The notes under the pieces: generated by a model
Told to the model about the DNA's origin: nothing
The model's input: the letters and a program-made list of their open reading frames with translations, nothing else
The model's database searches: none
Assembly: GCA_020740775.1 (NCBI GenBank)
Contig: JAHEWK010000017.1
Span: 930,001-994,000, forward strand
Length of the DNA: 64,000 nucleotides
Direction of reading: 5' to 3'
From: Ilyonectria destructans
Lineage: Eukaryota > Ascomycota > Sordariomycetes > Hypocreales > Nectriaceae
Shown: positions 42,806 through 52,477 of the stretch, one piece after another
How the letters are laid out: every line of letters starts with the position of its first letter
Numbering within the stretch: the first letter of the stretch is position 1
Made by a program: the position numbers and the translations under genes

Positions 42806-43365
42806 TTATGTCAGCGACCCACTTGGCAAAGGTCTTGATACATGCACCATCGATGTTACCTCAGGCACTCAGGCTCACACACTAGCCGAATAGACGCAAG
42901 CGCTAAGCGCACGTGATTCTGTGTGTGGGCCTGAGAGATTTTTGGCACAATTTGGTGGCTCATCCCTCAGGATACATACATTTTGTATGTGTCCTCAGTT
43001 GTAAATTATGTATCCCCATCTGTTACGCCAGACCGATTTCAACAAGAGAATTACAACGCCTCGTATCACCTTTAATGCAACAGAAAACATCAAAATAGCT
43101 GTGCGCAGAAGATCGATAAAGTCTCAGCTACCGATTGAATTGAGTCTCATTTGGATATGATGCTTCATTGTTGAGATATCGCGGTCGATGCTGGGCGTGC
43201 TGCGCAACTTGCTCCTGGTAGTCGACGACGAAGTGTGGTTACTTCCATGAACGGCGTCTTGCGATTATATGTACGATTCCCCAGACGTATTTTAACTCTC
43301 TGGCAAGCTCCAACTGACGATTCAATCTGGCTAGGTCGCGTCTAGGTCAAATTGCCACCTTGGCC

Positions 43366-43838
43366 ATGGATAGGACGCAATTGGCATCGAGGATTGAAAG
43401 TACAGTAGGGTTCAGGCCGCGACCTGGACAAGTGGAGGCGGTATACAAGCTCGTGGTGGATCAGAAAGATCTAATCCTGATTGCGCCTACTGGCTGGGGC
43501 AAGAGTGTCGTCTTTCAGGCAGTTCCAGCTCTAAGCGGTGGAATTTGCATCATGATTATGCCACTGACCCTCCTAGAAGAAGACCAGGTCAGTCTACCTA
43601 TTCTTGATAGCTATTGGGATAGCTTACCAGACATATTTTATGCAGGCAAGATCAATATCTAAGATTCCAGGTTGCAATCCATGTATTCTCAACGCAACCA
43701 CGAACTCGCCAACATTGCTTGAAGACATCAGGAATGGTACTTACACTCATGGTGAGCGCAAGCTTTGAAGAACTAGGAACCTCAACTACATGCTGATTCT
43801 GCAGTTCTTCTCGGTCCAGAGCTTGCGTTATCTGAAGC
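43366..43838 (+). pseudogene. Truncated RecQ-like helicase (unit 1)
   Basis: N-terminal quarter of a helicase related to 45440-47400. ATG 43366 (MDRTQLASRIE), then RPGQVEAVYKLVVDQKDLIL, Walker A APTGWGKS and IMIMPLTLLEEDQ. Two introns (about 43588-43646 and 43751-43802) sit at the same places as in the intact gene, followed by SKIPGCNPCILNA and LLGPELALSEAL. Sequence then runs into the tail-less DUF6589 gene on the other strand. Motifs II-VI are absent. Confidence 0.8.
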
Positions 43839-44709
43839 GTTGTTCTTTGACATGCTCCATCTGTTCGAAGTTGTCGTATGCAGTGACAGCGGTTGGCTGT
43901 TGCCCCCTCAGAGTTACCGCTTCTGCTGCTGCCTCTGACTGTCTCTTGATCACTTGCAGTGTCTTGTGATATGAGCAGCAAAGCCCAAGGCGGTGTAGAG
44001 CCTCTATCTGCCGTCGCTTAACGCCTTTGGAATGGAGATATACACTCAGCTGCAGCTGAAATCCAGAAGACTCATTCCGCCGCTGTGATCCACACATCAC
44101 TGCCAAAATGTTGACCAGAACCCCGTCGACTTGTGGTGGTAGATTGTCGTAGCCCCCTCGGACTTGGCTGTGAGGCTGTAACACACCACGGAGTGTCCGC
44201 AGGAGCAAGGGGCATGTTTTCTCTGCAGTCTCGATGAGTTTGCGCATGTCCAGTCGCTCGAACCCGCCATCTTCAGCCTCTTGTGACCTGTGGAAGGGTT
44301 TGAACCTGGCCAGGCTCGCAATTTCCTTCCGCAGCTCTATGGCACCGATATCTAAATATTCAATTAAATGTCCTCGAGATTCCGCCGTACCTGGACCCCC
44401 AGAGCGTCCTATGCATGCGTCCAGAACAGCCAAATCTTGATATGCGACTCTGGCAAACGCGGTCTTCCTCCGCGTATTCGCTTGACCCTCAGAGGTGCAT
44501 AGAGTATGAACGAATTCGCCAATAGACCAGTTCATTTCGTCAACAATATATCGCCAGACCAGGTTAAGCTTCTCTGGGCCATTTCGCCGCTCCCTTCCTA
44601 TACCGGTATCGGTACTCGCCTGGAGCTCTGGCGAAGGTGACGGCGTGTTGAAGGCCGACAGGTCGCTCATAGAACGGACGGACGAAAGCGGTGATGTAGA
44701 TGTTTCCAT
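43828..44709 (-). pseudogene. Truncated DUF6589-like gene (unit 1)
   Basis: The - strand frame from ATG 44709 (METSTSPLSSVRSM) to near 43835 is 293 codons. It aligns throughout with the first 270 residues of the intact protein of unit 2: LNLVWRYIVDEMNWSIGEF, NTRRKTAFARVAYQD, YLHSKGVKRRQIEALHRLGL, TAYDNFEQMEHVKEQR. It stops just after VKEQR at the internal deletion. Confidence 0.78.
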
Positions 44710-44966
44710 TGTACGTCTCGGCTTAGTTGAATTGTATAGGGACGCTGATGTTACGTTGTATGATGCTGCACACGGTGTGGTGAGCTCATTAGGAAGTTGG
44801 GGGATGGCCCACCAAATCGTGTCAAAAATCTCTCAGGCCCTCTGGGAGCCATTACCCCTTTAGGGAAGGCGTCGCGCTAGTAAGCGCGCCCAGTGGGCCT
44901 GAGTGCCTGAGGTAACCATCGATGGTGCAAATATCCTCACGTGACTCGTGCACCCAACTATCATCC

Positions 44967-45111
44967 TTACCTCAGTTCCTCAGGCCCTCTGTACCGGTGG
45001 CGGCTATGCGCGCTTACCAAAGCGCGCTAACCCGAACGGGTAACACCTACACAGAGGGCCTGAGCCCAATTTCCACATTTTTGGTGGCGTTGTCGTTCGC
45101 GGCTTTGTAAT
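44967..45111 (+). repeat. Left 145-bp TIR of unit 2, with internal hairpin
   Basis: Exact reverse complement of 50027-50171. Within it CTCAGGCCCTCTGT and ACAGAGGGCCTGAG are inverted arms enclosing GCGCGCTTaccaAAGCGCGC and CCCGAACGGG, so each end can fold into a branched stem-loop. Confidence 0.92.
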
Positions 45112-45439
45112 TTGCGAAACGCACTACCATTCACCATCTTCAATATCTGTTTCATCGACTGATTACTCGTACGCCTGACATGTAAGGGGCACGGGGCTTA
45201 TTCAGCCGGAAGCGTGCTTGGAAACCAACAAGTTGCTCGCGTGGAGCTGGCACCTAGCTACATACTCGAGCTCAGGGGTTGCGAAGAGCTTTGCCTTCAT
45301 TTAGTGGCGTCGAGGGTATCGACATTAGCCGAATACATATCAACGGCCCAGCCCGTTACATGACAACAGCAAAAGATGCCCTCAATTATTCTTGAAAATT
45401 ACAGTTGGGGATACATAGAAGCCTCCGCTACTGATCGTG

Positions 45440-47400
45440 ATGCTACATACCCCATTGTGTTGCCCTGATCCTGAGTCATTGCCCTCGACATTGGCAACCC
45501 TCCTCAACTTCCCTCCCCGGGACGGCCAGGTAGAAGCAATACGAAGACTCGCTGTCGACCAGCAGGACCTAATCCTGATTGCACCTACCGGATGGGGCAA
45601 GAGTGCCGTATTCCAAGCGATTCCGGCATTACGAGGCGGCATTTGTCTCATGATTATGCCCTTGAATCTGCTTGAAGAGGGCCAGGTCAGTCGGTGGCGA
45701 GACACACAGACAATTATGGGAAAACAATGAAATAACTGATCTTCACCGCAGGCCAAGTCCATTGCTCGAATACCCAACTGCAGGCCTTGCGTATTAAACG
45801 GCCAGTCAAATAAAGCCGCGTTGCTTAATGAGATCCGAATCGGCAAATACACGCACGGTAGGAATTCCATGTTGACAGTTGCCAACCGAACATCACGGCT
45901 GAACAGAGGGGCCCAGTGCTTTTGAGTCCAGAAATTGCATTGTCAGAGAGGTTCAAGACGGAGGTCCTATACGACCAGGCCTTTCAAGATCATCTCGTAT
46001 TGGTGGCCATCGACGAATTACACGTGGTCAGCGAGTGGGGTCTGCGTTGGAGGAGTTCATACAGCGGATTGGCTTTGCTGCGAGATCTGATTAGCAGGTC
46101 TGTGCCTTGGCTGGGATGTTCTGCAACGCTTGATCCAGTTACGCTGGCTGAGGTTCGAGATCTCAGCGGATTCGACCCTTCCGTTCGCATTCAACGAACC
46201 TCCATTGACAGACCCAACATAACATTCGAAATTCAGGCAATTCAGTATCGGATGGACGGTTTCCGCGATCTAGAGTTCCTTGTTAAACCGGTGCAGGCGG
46301 CAATCGAGAAGGCTGTTAAGGAGAGAAGGGAGAGTATGGCAAGAGAGGCATTCAAAAGCGGCGGTACAGCTGCTGCTCAAGCACTCTTCACAAGAACTCG
46401 ACATCAACGGATGGGAGCAGGATCTGACAGTCGTGCCTGTTGCAAGACAATTCCGAAGACCATAGTCTATCTTGACTCGATAACGCGGATCATGAAGGCG
46501 GTCGGGGCACTGAGAACGCTACTCATTCGGGCAGGTTGTTCAAAGACGGCAGCCATCAATACCGTCCAGGCATATCATTCACAGCTTGCAGAACCTGATA
46601 AGAGGCGTATATCCACAGAGTTCGAAAAGCCTGACACAGAGAGCGTCTTGGATAGCTCAATGCATCGCATCATCGTCGCCACAGATGCCATGGGAATGGG
46701 TATTGATAATCCAGATATCCGACTCGTCGTTCAGTGGGGGGTCCCACCCAGCATGGGGGCTTTATTGCAGCGGGCCGGCCGAGCTGCACGGGGTAAGGCA
46801 ATCTGCGGTAAGTTCGTCTGGTTAGTTCCTGCCTGGTGTTTTGGGGAGAGTATGGAACACTTGCCGCTTCGATCCTTCAAAAAGGGGATGACGGAGCGCG
46901 AGAAGCGATCCGCCTTACCACGAGGCATATGGGAATTAATCAATAGTTCAACTTGCATCCGGCGAGGCATACTCAGGTTCTTCGGCGAAAACCGCGCATT
47001 ATGCACTCGTCCGACAGAGGCAGTTTCCTGCTGTAGCAAATGCGCAGGGGACGACGTCAAGATACCTTCCAGCAAGGCTGGGCGGCCTGTCAGGATTGTT
47101 CAATCTCAAAAGCACATCACCGAAGCGGTGAAGTTGGCTTTGGTCGAGTGGCGAGATGCAAAGGCAGCATGCACCTTGTTTCCGACTTTTATCACAGCTG
47201 CACCAGCTGAGCTTATCCTTCCAGATAAAGCTGTAAACATGATATCAAGAACGGGTGCAACGGTTACTTCTATTAGTTCATTAGCACACGCAGTCAACGG
47301 GGAATGGGGTGATCTGGCTTCGTACGGCAAGGAGGTCCTCGAGGTGATACAGGACGCATGCCTTCAAGCAACGCTCCGAAAGCTCAAACTCGATAGATAA
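45440..47400 (+). CDS. RecQ-like DEAH helicase of unit 2
   Basis: Predicted 611-aa superfamily-2 3'-5' DNA helicase. Exons 45440-45685, 45752-45857 and 45917-47400; introns GTCAGT..GCAG and GTAGGA..CCCAG keep frame and match intron positions in the truncated cousin. Motif I APTGWGKS (near residue 50), motif II IDELHVVSEWG (a DELH variant of DEAH), motif III LGCSATLDP, motif V MGMGIDNPDIR and motif VI QRAGRAARG (RecQ-type QxxGRAGR variant). A Cys cluster CCSKC (near residue 490) may replace the RecQ zinc module. No HRDC domain seen. ATG 45440 is chosen as the first in frame; the frame call three bases earlier is GTG. Probable role: unwinding element ends or repair intermediates during transposition. 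Confidence 0.85.
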
Positions 47401-47421
47401 ATCAGGAGACATCAGTCCCTT

Positions 47422-49930
47422 CTACTCCTCGTCGGCATGATCAACTGCAAAAAAATGGCCAAGTTCCTCGTCGATTTCATCTTCGTCTTCCTGTCCATCG
47501 TCTAGTTCATCTTCATCTCCTTCCAAGTAATCATAGTCGACGCTGCATGCCATTCTGTTGAACTTGGCTATCGCTTTGCCGGCAATGCACATTGCCCCTG
47601 CTGCCAACACATCGGTAGCTTTATGCTTAACCGTCCGTCCACTGTGCAGAGCGATTGACCTGCTGTGCGATAAGCGTTGAGCCATCACCCTAATATCACG
47701 TTCCGCTGATTTCTCTGGATGTTTGCTACTCCGATGAATGCCGTAAAAGGATTCTGTCTGCTTGGCAAGAGTGGCAAAGAAGTCGGTATTTAGAGCACAG
47801 TGCTCGAAGAGATAATCCAGCGTAAGAGAAGATCCACGTTTGGCGTTGAGTAGCTTCCTGAGAGTGCCATTGTGGAATTTCACGAGCCTGTCTGTCTCAT
47901 ACCAGCTATCCGCCTTGCCCTGACGATTTACAAGTCCGTTTGCAAGTATCGCGCGTTGTAATTCCGGGGTGGCAGCACGCGTTGACGTGAGACGCTGAAG
48001 GTACAGCATCTCAAACGCATATCTCGATTGCCCTGAGCCATGGAAATACACGCAGCAGCGGTCAATGGCTCGGCGCAAGAGGCCGAGATCCGCATGCTTG
48101 ATTGAGTACTTCAGGAGCAGGTAGGTCTGAGTGTGCTGCAAGAACAGAATGTGGTTCCGAAGCTCCTCGTCATCAGTCGAGCGGGCATATTTGCCGTAAG
48201 AATCGACGATCCTATCCAAGAGTTGTGAGAAGGTTCCAGCATCGTGAATAGCCAGCATTCGAGCGATGTCTTCGAACTCGAGGCCTATCCCCTGCCCAGA
48301 CTGAGCAAGCATATTCCAGAGCAAAGCGCACACTCTAGCCTGGAAGCTATGGATGATCAGCTGCTCTAGGGCGTAGAAATCAGCGCTGGATTTGCTGATC
48401 CTTTTCCTTGTCCAGAAGTTCATGGCGTCATATAACGTGGATTGATCGCTGCCAGGACCGCCAAAGTGGAGTCTGGATATCATGTAGAGGTAGTTCATAC
48501 GGAGGTGGAAGAGCGCCGGTACTGGTAGCGCCCATTGTAGCCTGTCGCAAGGCCGCTGAGCTTCTTCCCTGCGTTGCTTAATCGAACGAATCCGCTGCGT
48601 GGTCTTCTGGTCACCGTAGATGAGGAATAAACGCTGCTCAAAGGCGGAATCGGGTAGGTGATATTGATGTTGAAAGATATTCTCAAGAATCAGGATATTA
48701 CCAGCATTACTGCTCTCGTCATGAGGAATAGGACCAAGGGAGCAATGGACAGTCTTGACAGGTTCGAGAACATCGACAACGGGCATTGCTGGACGTTGCT
48801 TCCTTGCAGCGTCCGGGATGGCGTTCGAGAAGATCGTGTTGATAGCTTCGTAGGAAAAGTATCGTGATATCTACTGAAGACGGTTCAACACCAAGCCATG
48901 GGCATGAAGGATCAATACATACCTGACGATTAATATCGTCATCCCGATTCCCGGGGGCCAGGAAGACGTCACTGGCGCATATTTCCGCCCGAGAATCAAG
49001 CATATCTTGTCGCAGTCCACCAGACGGTATTTCAATGCCTTGAATGACCTGGCCCGTCGTCACCGAATGGAAGGTACCTTGATGATCAACCCGCTGCTCC
49101 TTGACGCCTTCCATTACCTCGAAATTATCGTACGACGTCACGGACTCGTCACTCTGCCCCATTCTTTCTACTCGTGCCGCAGCCCGAGTTGATTGTTCTT
49201 TGATGGCTCGGATGACGGTGTTGTAACTGACGACAAGTCCGAGTTGACCAAGGAGCTCCAGCTGTTGGCGCTTCACACCTTGAGAATGGAGGTAGAGGCC
49301 TAGGGTCGTCTGAAAGCCGGTACAGGTGTTTTGGCGCTGCGAGAAGCAGAGGATTGATATGATGGCGACAATTCGAGCAGCTGGTTCTTTTTGGCGCTGA
49401 TACTTCCGCCGGGATTCAGGAGCCATGATGCCTCTGATAAGCTGTAGTAACAGAGGTGCCTCATTGTGTATCGTATTTAGGGTTTGGTCCATGTCGAGCG
49501 CGTCGAAGTCTCCATTCTTGGAAGTTGGATCGAACTTGTTAAATGGTGCTATAGTTCCTAGTTTTTCCACCTCTCTCCGTAGCTCATTGTCGCCCAGATC
49601 CAATGTCTCGATGATAGACTGCCTGCCGTCACCCCACAGTTGATCCGCATCGCGAAAGTAGGACCTCAGGACCTCAGAGTCCTTGTAGGCCGCTGCTACG
49701 AATGCAGCCTTTCGACGAGTATTATTAGAACCTTCAGAGGAAGCTAATGCCGTGACAAGGTCGGCAACACCCCAACGGAGCTCGTTTCGCATAAAATTGC
49801 ATACAATATCGAGCTTCTCAGCATCTGAGCGGGGTGATCGTCTGCGGTTGTTGTTGACGGGTGGCAGCAGCGAAGAGCCAGACGTGCTGCCTTCAGGTGT
49901 GGCCGTAGTGGACGAAGCTTCGGATGTCAT
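47422..49930 (-). CDS. DUF6589-like protein, candidate transposase of unit 2 (818 aa)
   Basis: Two exons, 49930-48923 and 48870-47422, intron GTATGT..CAGTAG (52 nt, phase 0). The start MTSEASSTT fits the homologous start in unit 1; an ATG further up (49996) is only 30 bp from the TIR. The N-terminal 260 residues are mostly helical (DAEKLDIVCNFMRNELRWG, YLHSQGVKRQQLELLGQLGL). Then come SYDNFEVMEGVKEQR (D near 268) with TFHSVTTG, IYGDQKTTQRIRS (D near 423), VPALFHLRMNYLYMISRLHFG, RCCVYFHGSGQSRYAFEM, WYETDRLVKFHNGTL, and an acidic tail. These blocks match my recollection of DUF6589. The two Asp in beta-strand-like contexts, followed by later acids, are compatible with an RNase-H-like DD(E/D) nuclease, but this is inference. 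Intact, with no lesion seen. Confidence 0.75.
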
Positions 49931-50026
49931 ATCCAGAGTGGTATGTAGATGTATTAATGGTGGCGCAAATTGACAATTGACTGCAAACGCATGCAAATTT
50001 TCTGTTGAGCAAGAACGAATGGCATG

Positions 50027-50171
50027 ATTACAAAGCCGCGAACGACAACGCCACCAAAAATGTGGAAATTGGGCTCAGGCCCTCTGTGTAGGTGTTACCC
50101 GTTCGGGTTAGCGCGCTTTGGTAAGCGCGCATAGCCGCCACCGGTACAGAGGGCCTGAGGAACTGAGGTAA
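50027..50171 (-). repeat. Right 145-bp TIR of unit 2, with internal hairpin
   Basis: Exact reverse complement of 44967-45111, with the same internal palindromes. Confidence 0.92.
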
Positions 50172-51211: not shown

Positions 51212-52477
51212 CTAAAGGTTAGGTGTTATCGCTAGTCTTTGGCCGCTTACTTTCCCCTCTTTAAGCAGATTCCATGCCTCTTGCACCTTATCTAGGCCAC
51301 CGAGAATTTGAACAGGCACTTGCTGCAGCCGCCCAGATGCGAGCTCGCTTTCCAAGAAATCCCACCACACCCACTGGGTGAACTCCCGTTTCTTGGGGTC
51401 CAGATAGGCGTCCAGAAACGGCGCAAAGGTCCCATTCACTCCTGGCGGCAGCTCCACACCCGCCCGCACACCCATTGTCGACAGAAAAGTACCCCCTCCG
51501 TGCGCAGCCAAGACAGCCCCCAACACGTCCTGATCCTGGGCCGAGTCAGCAGCTGCTAAGACGGCTTCGAAAGGGCCTATATCTATAAGCTCTTGCGTCA
51601 CTGTTGGCGATCTCCTGTCGATAAAGTGCATAGCACCGAAGGACTTCACAAGCTGGGCATTCTTAGAAGACGCAACGCCCACCACTGTGTAACCTGCTCG
51701 AGCAGCCATCTGGCTAGCATAGGCACCGAAAGAAGAAGAAGCGCCCCAGATAAGCACCTTCTTGTTCTTGTTCTCGGGATTGGGATGGTCTGTTGGTTTT
51801 TCAAGGTGCAGGTGTTGGATGAGTGCACTAGCAGGATAGCACAGGCTGGAGACGGACACCGCAGCTTCGAAGGAGGCTTCTCCAATCTACAAGGCCATGG
51901 TGTCAGCAGACAGTTGGTTTCATCTCTTGATCTCATTGCAACGAGACTCAAGCTGGAGATATCGTCCGCTCACCTTCGCTGTCATCTCTTGCGTGGTAAG
52001 CGCGTATCGCTGGTATGCTCCAAATCGGGCATCATTGCGGATACTTCCACAGCTGTTGGTGACAATGCGGTCGCCCTGCTTGAAGCGGCTGACCTCCGTG
52101 CCGACTTTGACGATCGTGCCAGAAAATGATACTGCACACTCGGCTTAGCAACCATATTCTATAGCGGAGGCCCCCTGCTGGAAACGGATACTAACATCCA
52201 ATGATGGTGGGGTACTTCAGGGCATACGGGAGTGTCCCCTCTTGGATCTTGTATTCTGCTGGCTGGACAGCGACGACTCCGACCTGTTGTCATGTCGGTT
52301 GTTAGAGACCCTGCGCAGAGACGTAAATGCGAGCAAAAAGGGGCCGGCTTCCTTGTTCACATTCCTTACCTCGATGAGAAGCTCCCCTGGGCCCGGGTCT
52401 GGAGTATTGGCAGGGCCGATTTCGACCTGCTCCCCTACACCTGGTAGCCATGCCGCTATGTTCTGATATGCCGCCAT
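51212..52477 (-). CDS. Medium-chain dehydrogenase/reductase (zinc-type ADH/enoyl-reductase-like)
   Basis: NAD(P)H-dependent oxidoreductase of the MDR superfamily. Starts at ATG 52477 (MAAYQNIAAWLPG) and reads through four exons with introns at about 52357-52437 (GTAAGG), 52138-52200 (GTTAGT), 51892-51972 (GTGAGC); all joins are in frame. GroES-like N-terminal part has EVGVVAVQPAEYKIQEG, YPTIIG and FSGTIVKVGTEVSRFKQGDR. The Rossmann part has KVLIWGASSSFGAYASQMA with VVGVASSKNAQLVKSFGA. It ends in LLKEGKVSGQRLAITP. The catalytic-zinc Cys/His pattern of classical ADHs is not evident, so a zinc-free enoyl reductase or quinone-reductase-like enzyme is more likely. It is divergent from the SDR at 53343. 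Confidence 0.8.

Follow-up and report, generated by a model that had tools for sequence, protein, structure and literature searches.

What moves a transposon that carries a helicase gene and, at first sight, no standard transposase, and how does it choose its insertion site? The question is raised by a 5205-bp unit at positions 44967–50171 of a 64,000-nt stretch (hereafter, the window) of contig C9 of Ilyonectria destructans (Ascomycota; genome of 71.7 Mb in 74 contigs). The unit is bounded by 145-nt terminal inverted repeats (TIRs), of which the left one (44967–45111, forward strand) starts with TTACCTCAG and the right one (50027–50171, reverse strand) terminates in CTGAGGTAA; they are 100 per cent complementary and separated by 4915 nt. 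The termini read TTACC...GGTAA, that is, 5'-TT...AA-3', and the left TIR contains an internal inverted repeat of its own (44979–44999 and 45044–45064, 86 per cent). The interior consists of two convergent, intron-containing genes, one for a RecQ-type helicase and one for a protein of the DUF6589 family, whose stop codons at 47400 and 47422 have 21 bp between them. An initial annotation had described the unit as a complete TIR transposon, which this architecture bears out. We have good confidence that it is an autonomous-type cut-and-paste DNA transposon, AcademH-like and guided by the word CACGTG, in which the DUF6589 protein would serve as DDE transposase and the RecQ-type helicase as an accessory.

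The unit is a TIR transposon with recent movement, because the genome holds it in four complete copies and a further one that is split, its target duplications measure 8–9 bp, and the targets also exist in uninterrupted form. Specifically, a search of the genome with the TIR returned 18 matches, ten of them at 145 of 145 positions, and an interior query located complete copies on C9 (the window copy), C24, C32, and C16, together with the split copy on C31. The C24 copy is identical to the window sequence throughout its 5205 bp; the C32 and C16 copies share four differences from it, and two substitutions in the helicase distinguish the two sequence types. The target duplications are AGGACTGGG for C24, GTGCGGCAT for C32, and the 8-bp TGCGGCAT for C16. 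The C32/C16 target sits in a repeat of ~1022 bp that ends in 195-bp direct repeats, and it is found uninterrupted at seven perfect places in the genome. Three places carry the C24 target uninterrupted across the insertion point, over part of the query. C32 and C16 occupy distinct copies of the ~1022-bp repeat (97–98 and 100 per cent identical to the reference copy, respectively), and are therefore separate insertions at one position; beyond the repeat, their flanks did not match in the compared stretches. A single copy and a lack of empty sites, either of which the initial annotation had named as grounds for rejecting its reading, did not come true, and the multiple copies and uninterrupted target sites rule out a host-gene pair without mobility. 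The ~1022-bp repeat itself (loci L064–L070; bases 735–1756 of L064) is present in seven near-identical copies and resembles a small long terminal repeat (LTR)-type element.

The left and right flanks of the window copy carry no matching duplication. To its left lies the 9-bp sequence CTATCATCC (44958–44966), and the same 9 bp, followed by the remainder of the target repeat, are found right of the right end of the C31 element, which is present as two pieces in opposite orientation (113382–114117 and 144332–148807), ~30 kb apart and with 7 bp in common. Because CTATCATCC and the continuation of the target repeat adjoin the C31 right end, the simplest reading of these sequences is that the C9 and C31 copies may have undergone an exchange, together with an inversion on C31. 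It is unlikely that the window copy still sits where it first inserted and has merely lost its right target duplication through decay: the perfect TIRs and open reading frames do point to a young element, and decay would not require any rearrangement of the site, but the CTATCATCC partner and the continuation of the same repeat at the C31 right end fit an exchange better. The exchange reading leaves unexplained the remaining pair of flanks (window 50172 onward and the left flank of C31:148807), which have only CCCCC in common and no CACGTG within 150 bp.

The forward-strand gene (45440–47400; predicted exons 45440–45685, 45752–45857, and 45917–47400) encodes a 612-aa superfamily II DNA helicase of RecQ type. 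It has the motifs APTGWGKS, IDELH, CSATLD, ATDAMGMGID, QRAGRAARG, and CCSKC, its DEAD and Helicase_C domains exceed the Pfam cut-off, and its third exon alone matches the NCBIfam model recQ_fam with an E value of 5e-29, a match that falls short of the model's own cut-off. The reverse-strand gene (47422–49930; predicted exons 49930–48923 and 48870–47422, intron 48871–48922) encodes an 818-aa protein that is assigned to DUF6589 (PF20231). Both products had been named correctly, as a RecQ-like helicase and a DUF6589-like protein, in the initial annotation. The splice junctions of both genes are predictions, and over the overlapping parts they match two annotated proteins, P0158 and P0001.

A confident AlphaFold model of the DUF6589 protein displays an RNase-H/DDE fold interrupted by a helical insertion, and the closest solved structures are those of the P element, Hermes, and RAG1. 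As in proteins of the P/hAT/RAG type, the model has an RNase-H core with D and D on strands, E on a subsequent helix, and the helical insertion between. Judged by this model, the DUF6589 protein is probably the DDE transposase of the element, with D268, D423, and position 667 as the presumed catalytic triad, and the earlier statement that neither gene encodes a standard transposase is probably wrong or incomplete. The predicted DDE core with a helical insertion domain is the likeness to the P element, hAT (Hermes), and RAG1–Transib; duplications of the P element and hAT are 8 bp long. The element differs from these systems in its helicase partner and in that a search of PDB sequences with the DUF6589 profile yielded zero matches, and its termini presumably differ from theirs as well. 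The best 120 of the 228 matches to the DUF6589 profile are exclusively DUF6589-family proteins, and the sequences compared included no Academ transposase reference.

Could the helicase instead move the element, in a Helitron-like or replicative manner, with the DUF6589 protein as the accessory? Known rolling-circle elements are driven by their helicases, and Pfam gives DUF6589 no named function, but several observations make this very improbable. Long perfect TIRs and 8–9-bp duplications are foreign to Helitrons, and on these two features a Helitron is excluded; the DUF6589 protein, moreover, models as a DDE transposase. Additionally, contig C14 harbors three near-identical 3363-bp elements with perfect 192-bp TIRs (at 285, 590, and 916 kb; loci L021, L022, and L015/L050) that carry DUF6589 alone, no helicase match having been found in the search there. 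Their DUF6589 product is 88 per cent identical to that of the window over 93 per cent of the query, and their target duplications measure 9 bp (C14a), 9 bp with eight of nine positions matching (C14b), and 8 bp (C14c). Helitrons also have an HUH Rep endonuclease, and a Pfam scan of five open reading frames (ORFs) detected no Rep domain.

If the DUF6589 protein is the transposase, the window copy itself may be defective. Residue 667 is Glu in 68 of 71 aligned sequences and in the C16, C32, and C31 copies, and Lys in the window and C24 copies; by this comparison, one of the catalytic residues of the window copy is probably damaged. Should E667 be catalytic, the window copy would need the transposase of another copy, and the identical C9/C24 pair would have moved in trans. 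The genes had been called intact in the initial annotation; their reading frames are indeed open, but the Lys at residue 667, where most relatives have Glu, makes the term doubtful for the window copy.

The pairing of a helicase with DUF6589 on a TIR element had not been recognised as a known type. The pairing of a helicase with a TIR transposon is not new. Among the matches listed from the open-access literature, none presents DUF6589 or PF20231 as a probable DDE transposase. AcademH DNA transposons were reportedly described by Kojima in 2020. In the excerpts available of the papers cited here, to which all statements about them are limited, helicase-bearing TIR transposons appear as AcademH and KolobokH (PMC10045372, PMC10799480, PMC9587614). 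AcademH is a helicase-bearing lineage of Academ in animals and fungi with duplications of 9 or 10 bp (PMC10045372), and it is present at low copy in Basidiomycota, Ascomycota, and Mucoromycota (PMC10799480). Compared by description, the element is like AcademH in being a low-copy DNA transposon with a helicase beside the transposase in fungi, including Ascomycota, in the superfamily II/RecQ type of its helicase, and in its TIRs (145 bp, 100 per cent). Its duplications of 8 or 9 bp agree in part with the published 9–10 bp (PMC10045372). It differs in the fixed spacing from CACGTG presented below, which goes unmentioned in the excerpted AcademH descriptions. AcademH is the best fit among known groups, and the element is probably a member. 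The excerpt of PMC12730594 makes no mention of Academ, and that of PMC4522978, a match for fungal RecQ helicase, TIR, and target duplication, concerns telomeric helicases.

KolobokH, the other helicase-bearing group, belongs to the Kolobok superfamily and is known only from fungi; it combines a fungal transposon with a RecQ helicase (PMC9587614, PMC10989895), and in this combination it resembles the element described here. We nevertheless see next to no chance that the element belongs to it. Kolobok elements have 4-bp TTAA duplications and 5'-RR...YY-3' ends (PMC9587614), whereas the duplications here are 8–9 bp long and varied in sequence and the ends are 5'-TT...AA-3'; on these two characters KolobokH is ruled out. 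The stretch of P0001 from D167 to E411, furthermore, showed no sign of the C/DxxH motif that Kolobok has in common with hAT, P, MuDR, and Dada.

The element has relatives in this genome and elsewhere. Next to it, on the left, lies a 2060-bp relic of a related element (42856–44915) whose termini match (TTACCTCAGGCACTCAGGC) and which retains the remains of a helicase; it is flanked by copies of the 9-bp target duplication CCATCGATG (42847–42855 and 44916–44924); its 293-aa reverse ORF has no Pfam match and looks, by eye, like the N-terminal part of DUF6589. At C14:531168–542351 (L049, L041), ~8 kb separate a further DUF6589 gene from another match to a RecQ-like helicase, and a TTACCTCAG end there has CACGTG at 19 bp; the left end of this locus was not found within the stretches examined. 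Many short elements also have TTACCTCAG ends, in forms of 90, 133, 137, 619, 634, and 714 bp. These 90–714-bp elements, which resemble miniature inverted-repeat transposable elements, occur on C20, C26, C33, C40, C18, C36, and C30 (L023–L031). Outside this genome, DUF6589 and helicase genes are at adjacent locus tags in Sclerophora amabilis and appear paired on six metagenome contigs (against a background of 0.14 per offset), the pairing being deduced from equal length and source, and not read, with a floor of 2500 bp. That comparison covered 86 of 103 DUF6589 matches and 71 of 92 helicase matches, the others being long contigs, rows without a length, and a few more. One pair of equal length (P0007 and P0163, 1974 bp) falls below the floor and looks like a coincidence.

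Where do these elements insert? Ends were collected by their TIR or terminus sequence, with the flanks disregarded. Exact 9-bp duplications are present at six loci (C24, C32, the relic, C26_634, C36_714, and C14a) and exact 8-bp duplications at four (C16, C26m133, C26_90, and C14c); two more of 8 bp (L086 and L093) were found afterwards via the CACGTG pattern. We assembled a test set of ten insertions from all of the former loci except C16, whose target is that of C32, with the addition of C14b, in whose duplication one position in nine mismatches and which exact-match scoring counted as having none; the composite site of the window left and C31 right flanks (CACGTG at 23 bp) was also omitted. 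In nine of the ten, the edge of the element and the word CACGTG are 21, 22, or 23 bp apart, a distance that includes the duplication, and C36_714 is the exception. Among control positions, this spacing turns up at 54 of 63800 in the window and at 207 of 53632 at 16 other loci (0.08–0.4 per cent), the latter being a high control because it includes copies of the target repeats. The motif was spotted on the first few sites, which are thus not a blind test. Given a 9-bp duplication, ~20 bp (two helical turns) separate the centre of insertion from that of the palindrome.

Outside the test set, two of seven paired elements without a recognisable duplication have the word, at 22 bp (one duplicated site), and among 14 one-ended matches, for which a single side could be viewed, it is at 22 bp in two and at 19 bp in one. 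One non-follower, L046, belongs to a 287-bp element (L086), of which it forms the far end; this element has an 8-bp duplication, and on the opposite side of it CACGTG lies at 19 bp. Across the genome, CACGTG followed by 10–40 bases and TTACCTCAG gave 39 matches, compared to 2 for the reversed pattern, elements already counted included. These comprise 32 distinct strings, of which 29 have a spacing of 18–23, with one peak at exactly 19 (12 strings) and another at 21–23 (14 strings). Of the 13 loci examined at spacing 18–20, seven carry TTACCTCAGCAAGCTCAG as their terminus, and in several of the rest the terminus is close to that sequence. Beyond this genome, the pattern had 13 matches in viral contigs and 6 in genome contigs, none of them confirmed, and the open-access literature matches listed include no CACGTG spacing as a transposon target rule.

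The spacing could merely reflect landing in a few CACGTG-containing repeats, or in promoters and open chromatin, with no recognition of the word itself. Several targets are indeed repeats, among them the LTR-type repeat with its 195-bp direct repeats and the repeat common to C24 and C14b, elements of different families that are inserted at the same nucleotide. Three observations make this reading improbable. First, when target repeats are collapsed (grouped by eye), eight distinct verified targets remain, and seven have the word at 21–23 bp (binomial probability 1e-16 against the higher control rate). Second, the window element and the relic lie on opposite sides of one CACGTG (44938–44943): the left edge of the element is 23 bp away from it, the right edge of the relic 22 bp. 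Third, the distances concentrate at 19 and 22 and do not spread across 10–40. We lean, if only slightly, toward a broader rule, in which DUF6589 transposons, with or without a RecQ helicase, would integrate at a fixed distance from CACGTG, ~19 or ~22 bp depending on the family and to either side of the word, while tethered to a CACGTG-binding protein. The two-turn geometry suggests that a CACGTG-bound protein holds the transpososome, and this word is one that basic helix-loop-helix (bHLH) factors bind. The Ty3 element of yeast and the Tf1 element of fission yeast, which unlike the element described here are retrotransposons, likewise favour integration at a certain distance from a host protein on the DNA or from its site.

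In the cut-and-paste mechanism that we propose, the DUF6589 protein would bind to the element at its inverted repeats (TTACCTCAG...CTGAGGTAA), excise it, and join it to the target with an 8–9-bp stagger. The RecQ-type helicase may act as an accessory in end melting, or in repair or replication at the donor or target. CACGTG would select the target, with insertion about two helical turns off on either side, and the complex may be tethered by the transposase itself or by a bHLH-type CACGTG-binding host protein. The copies, duplications, uninterrupted targets, predicted fold, and spacing are what we observed here; catalysis, the role of the helicase, and the tethering protein we infer.

Beside the element, at 51212–52477 on the reverse strand, ORF pieces resemble a zinc-type medium-chain dehydrogenase, their translation having been judged by eye.

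These findings point to a likely function, that of a DDE transposase, for a Pfam family that is present in many fungal proteins. Cut-and-paste transposons are mostly thought to be loose in their choice of target. If the CACGTG rule is true, the elements would represent a targeted, E-box-guided mode of cut-and-paste transposition and provide a DNA transposon from nature whose targeting follows a simple rule that can be tested; with the distance to a transcription-factor word fixed, both the tethering partner and the role of the helicase could be tested directly.

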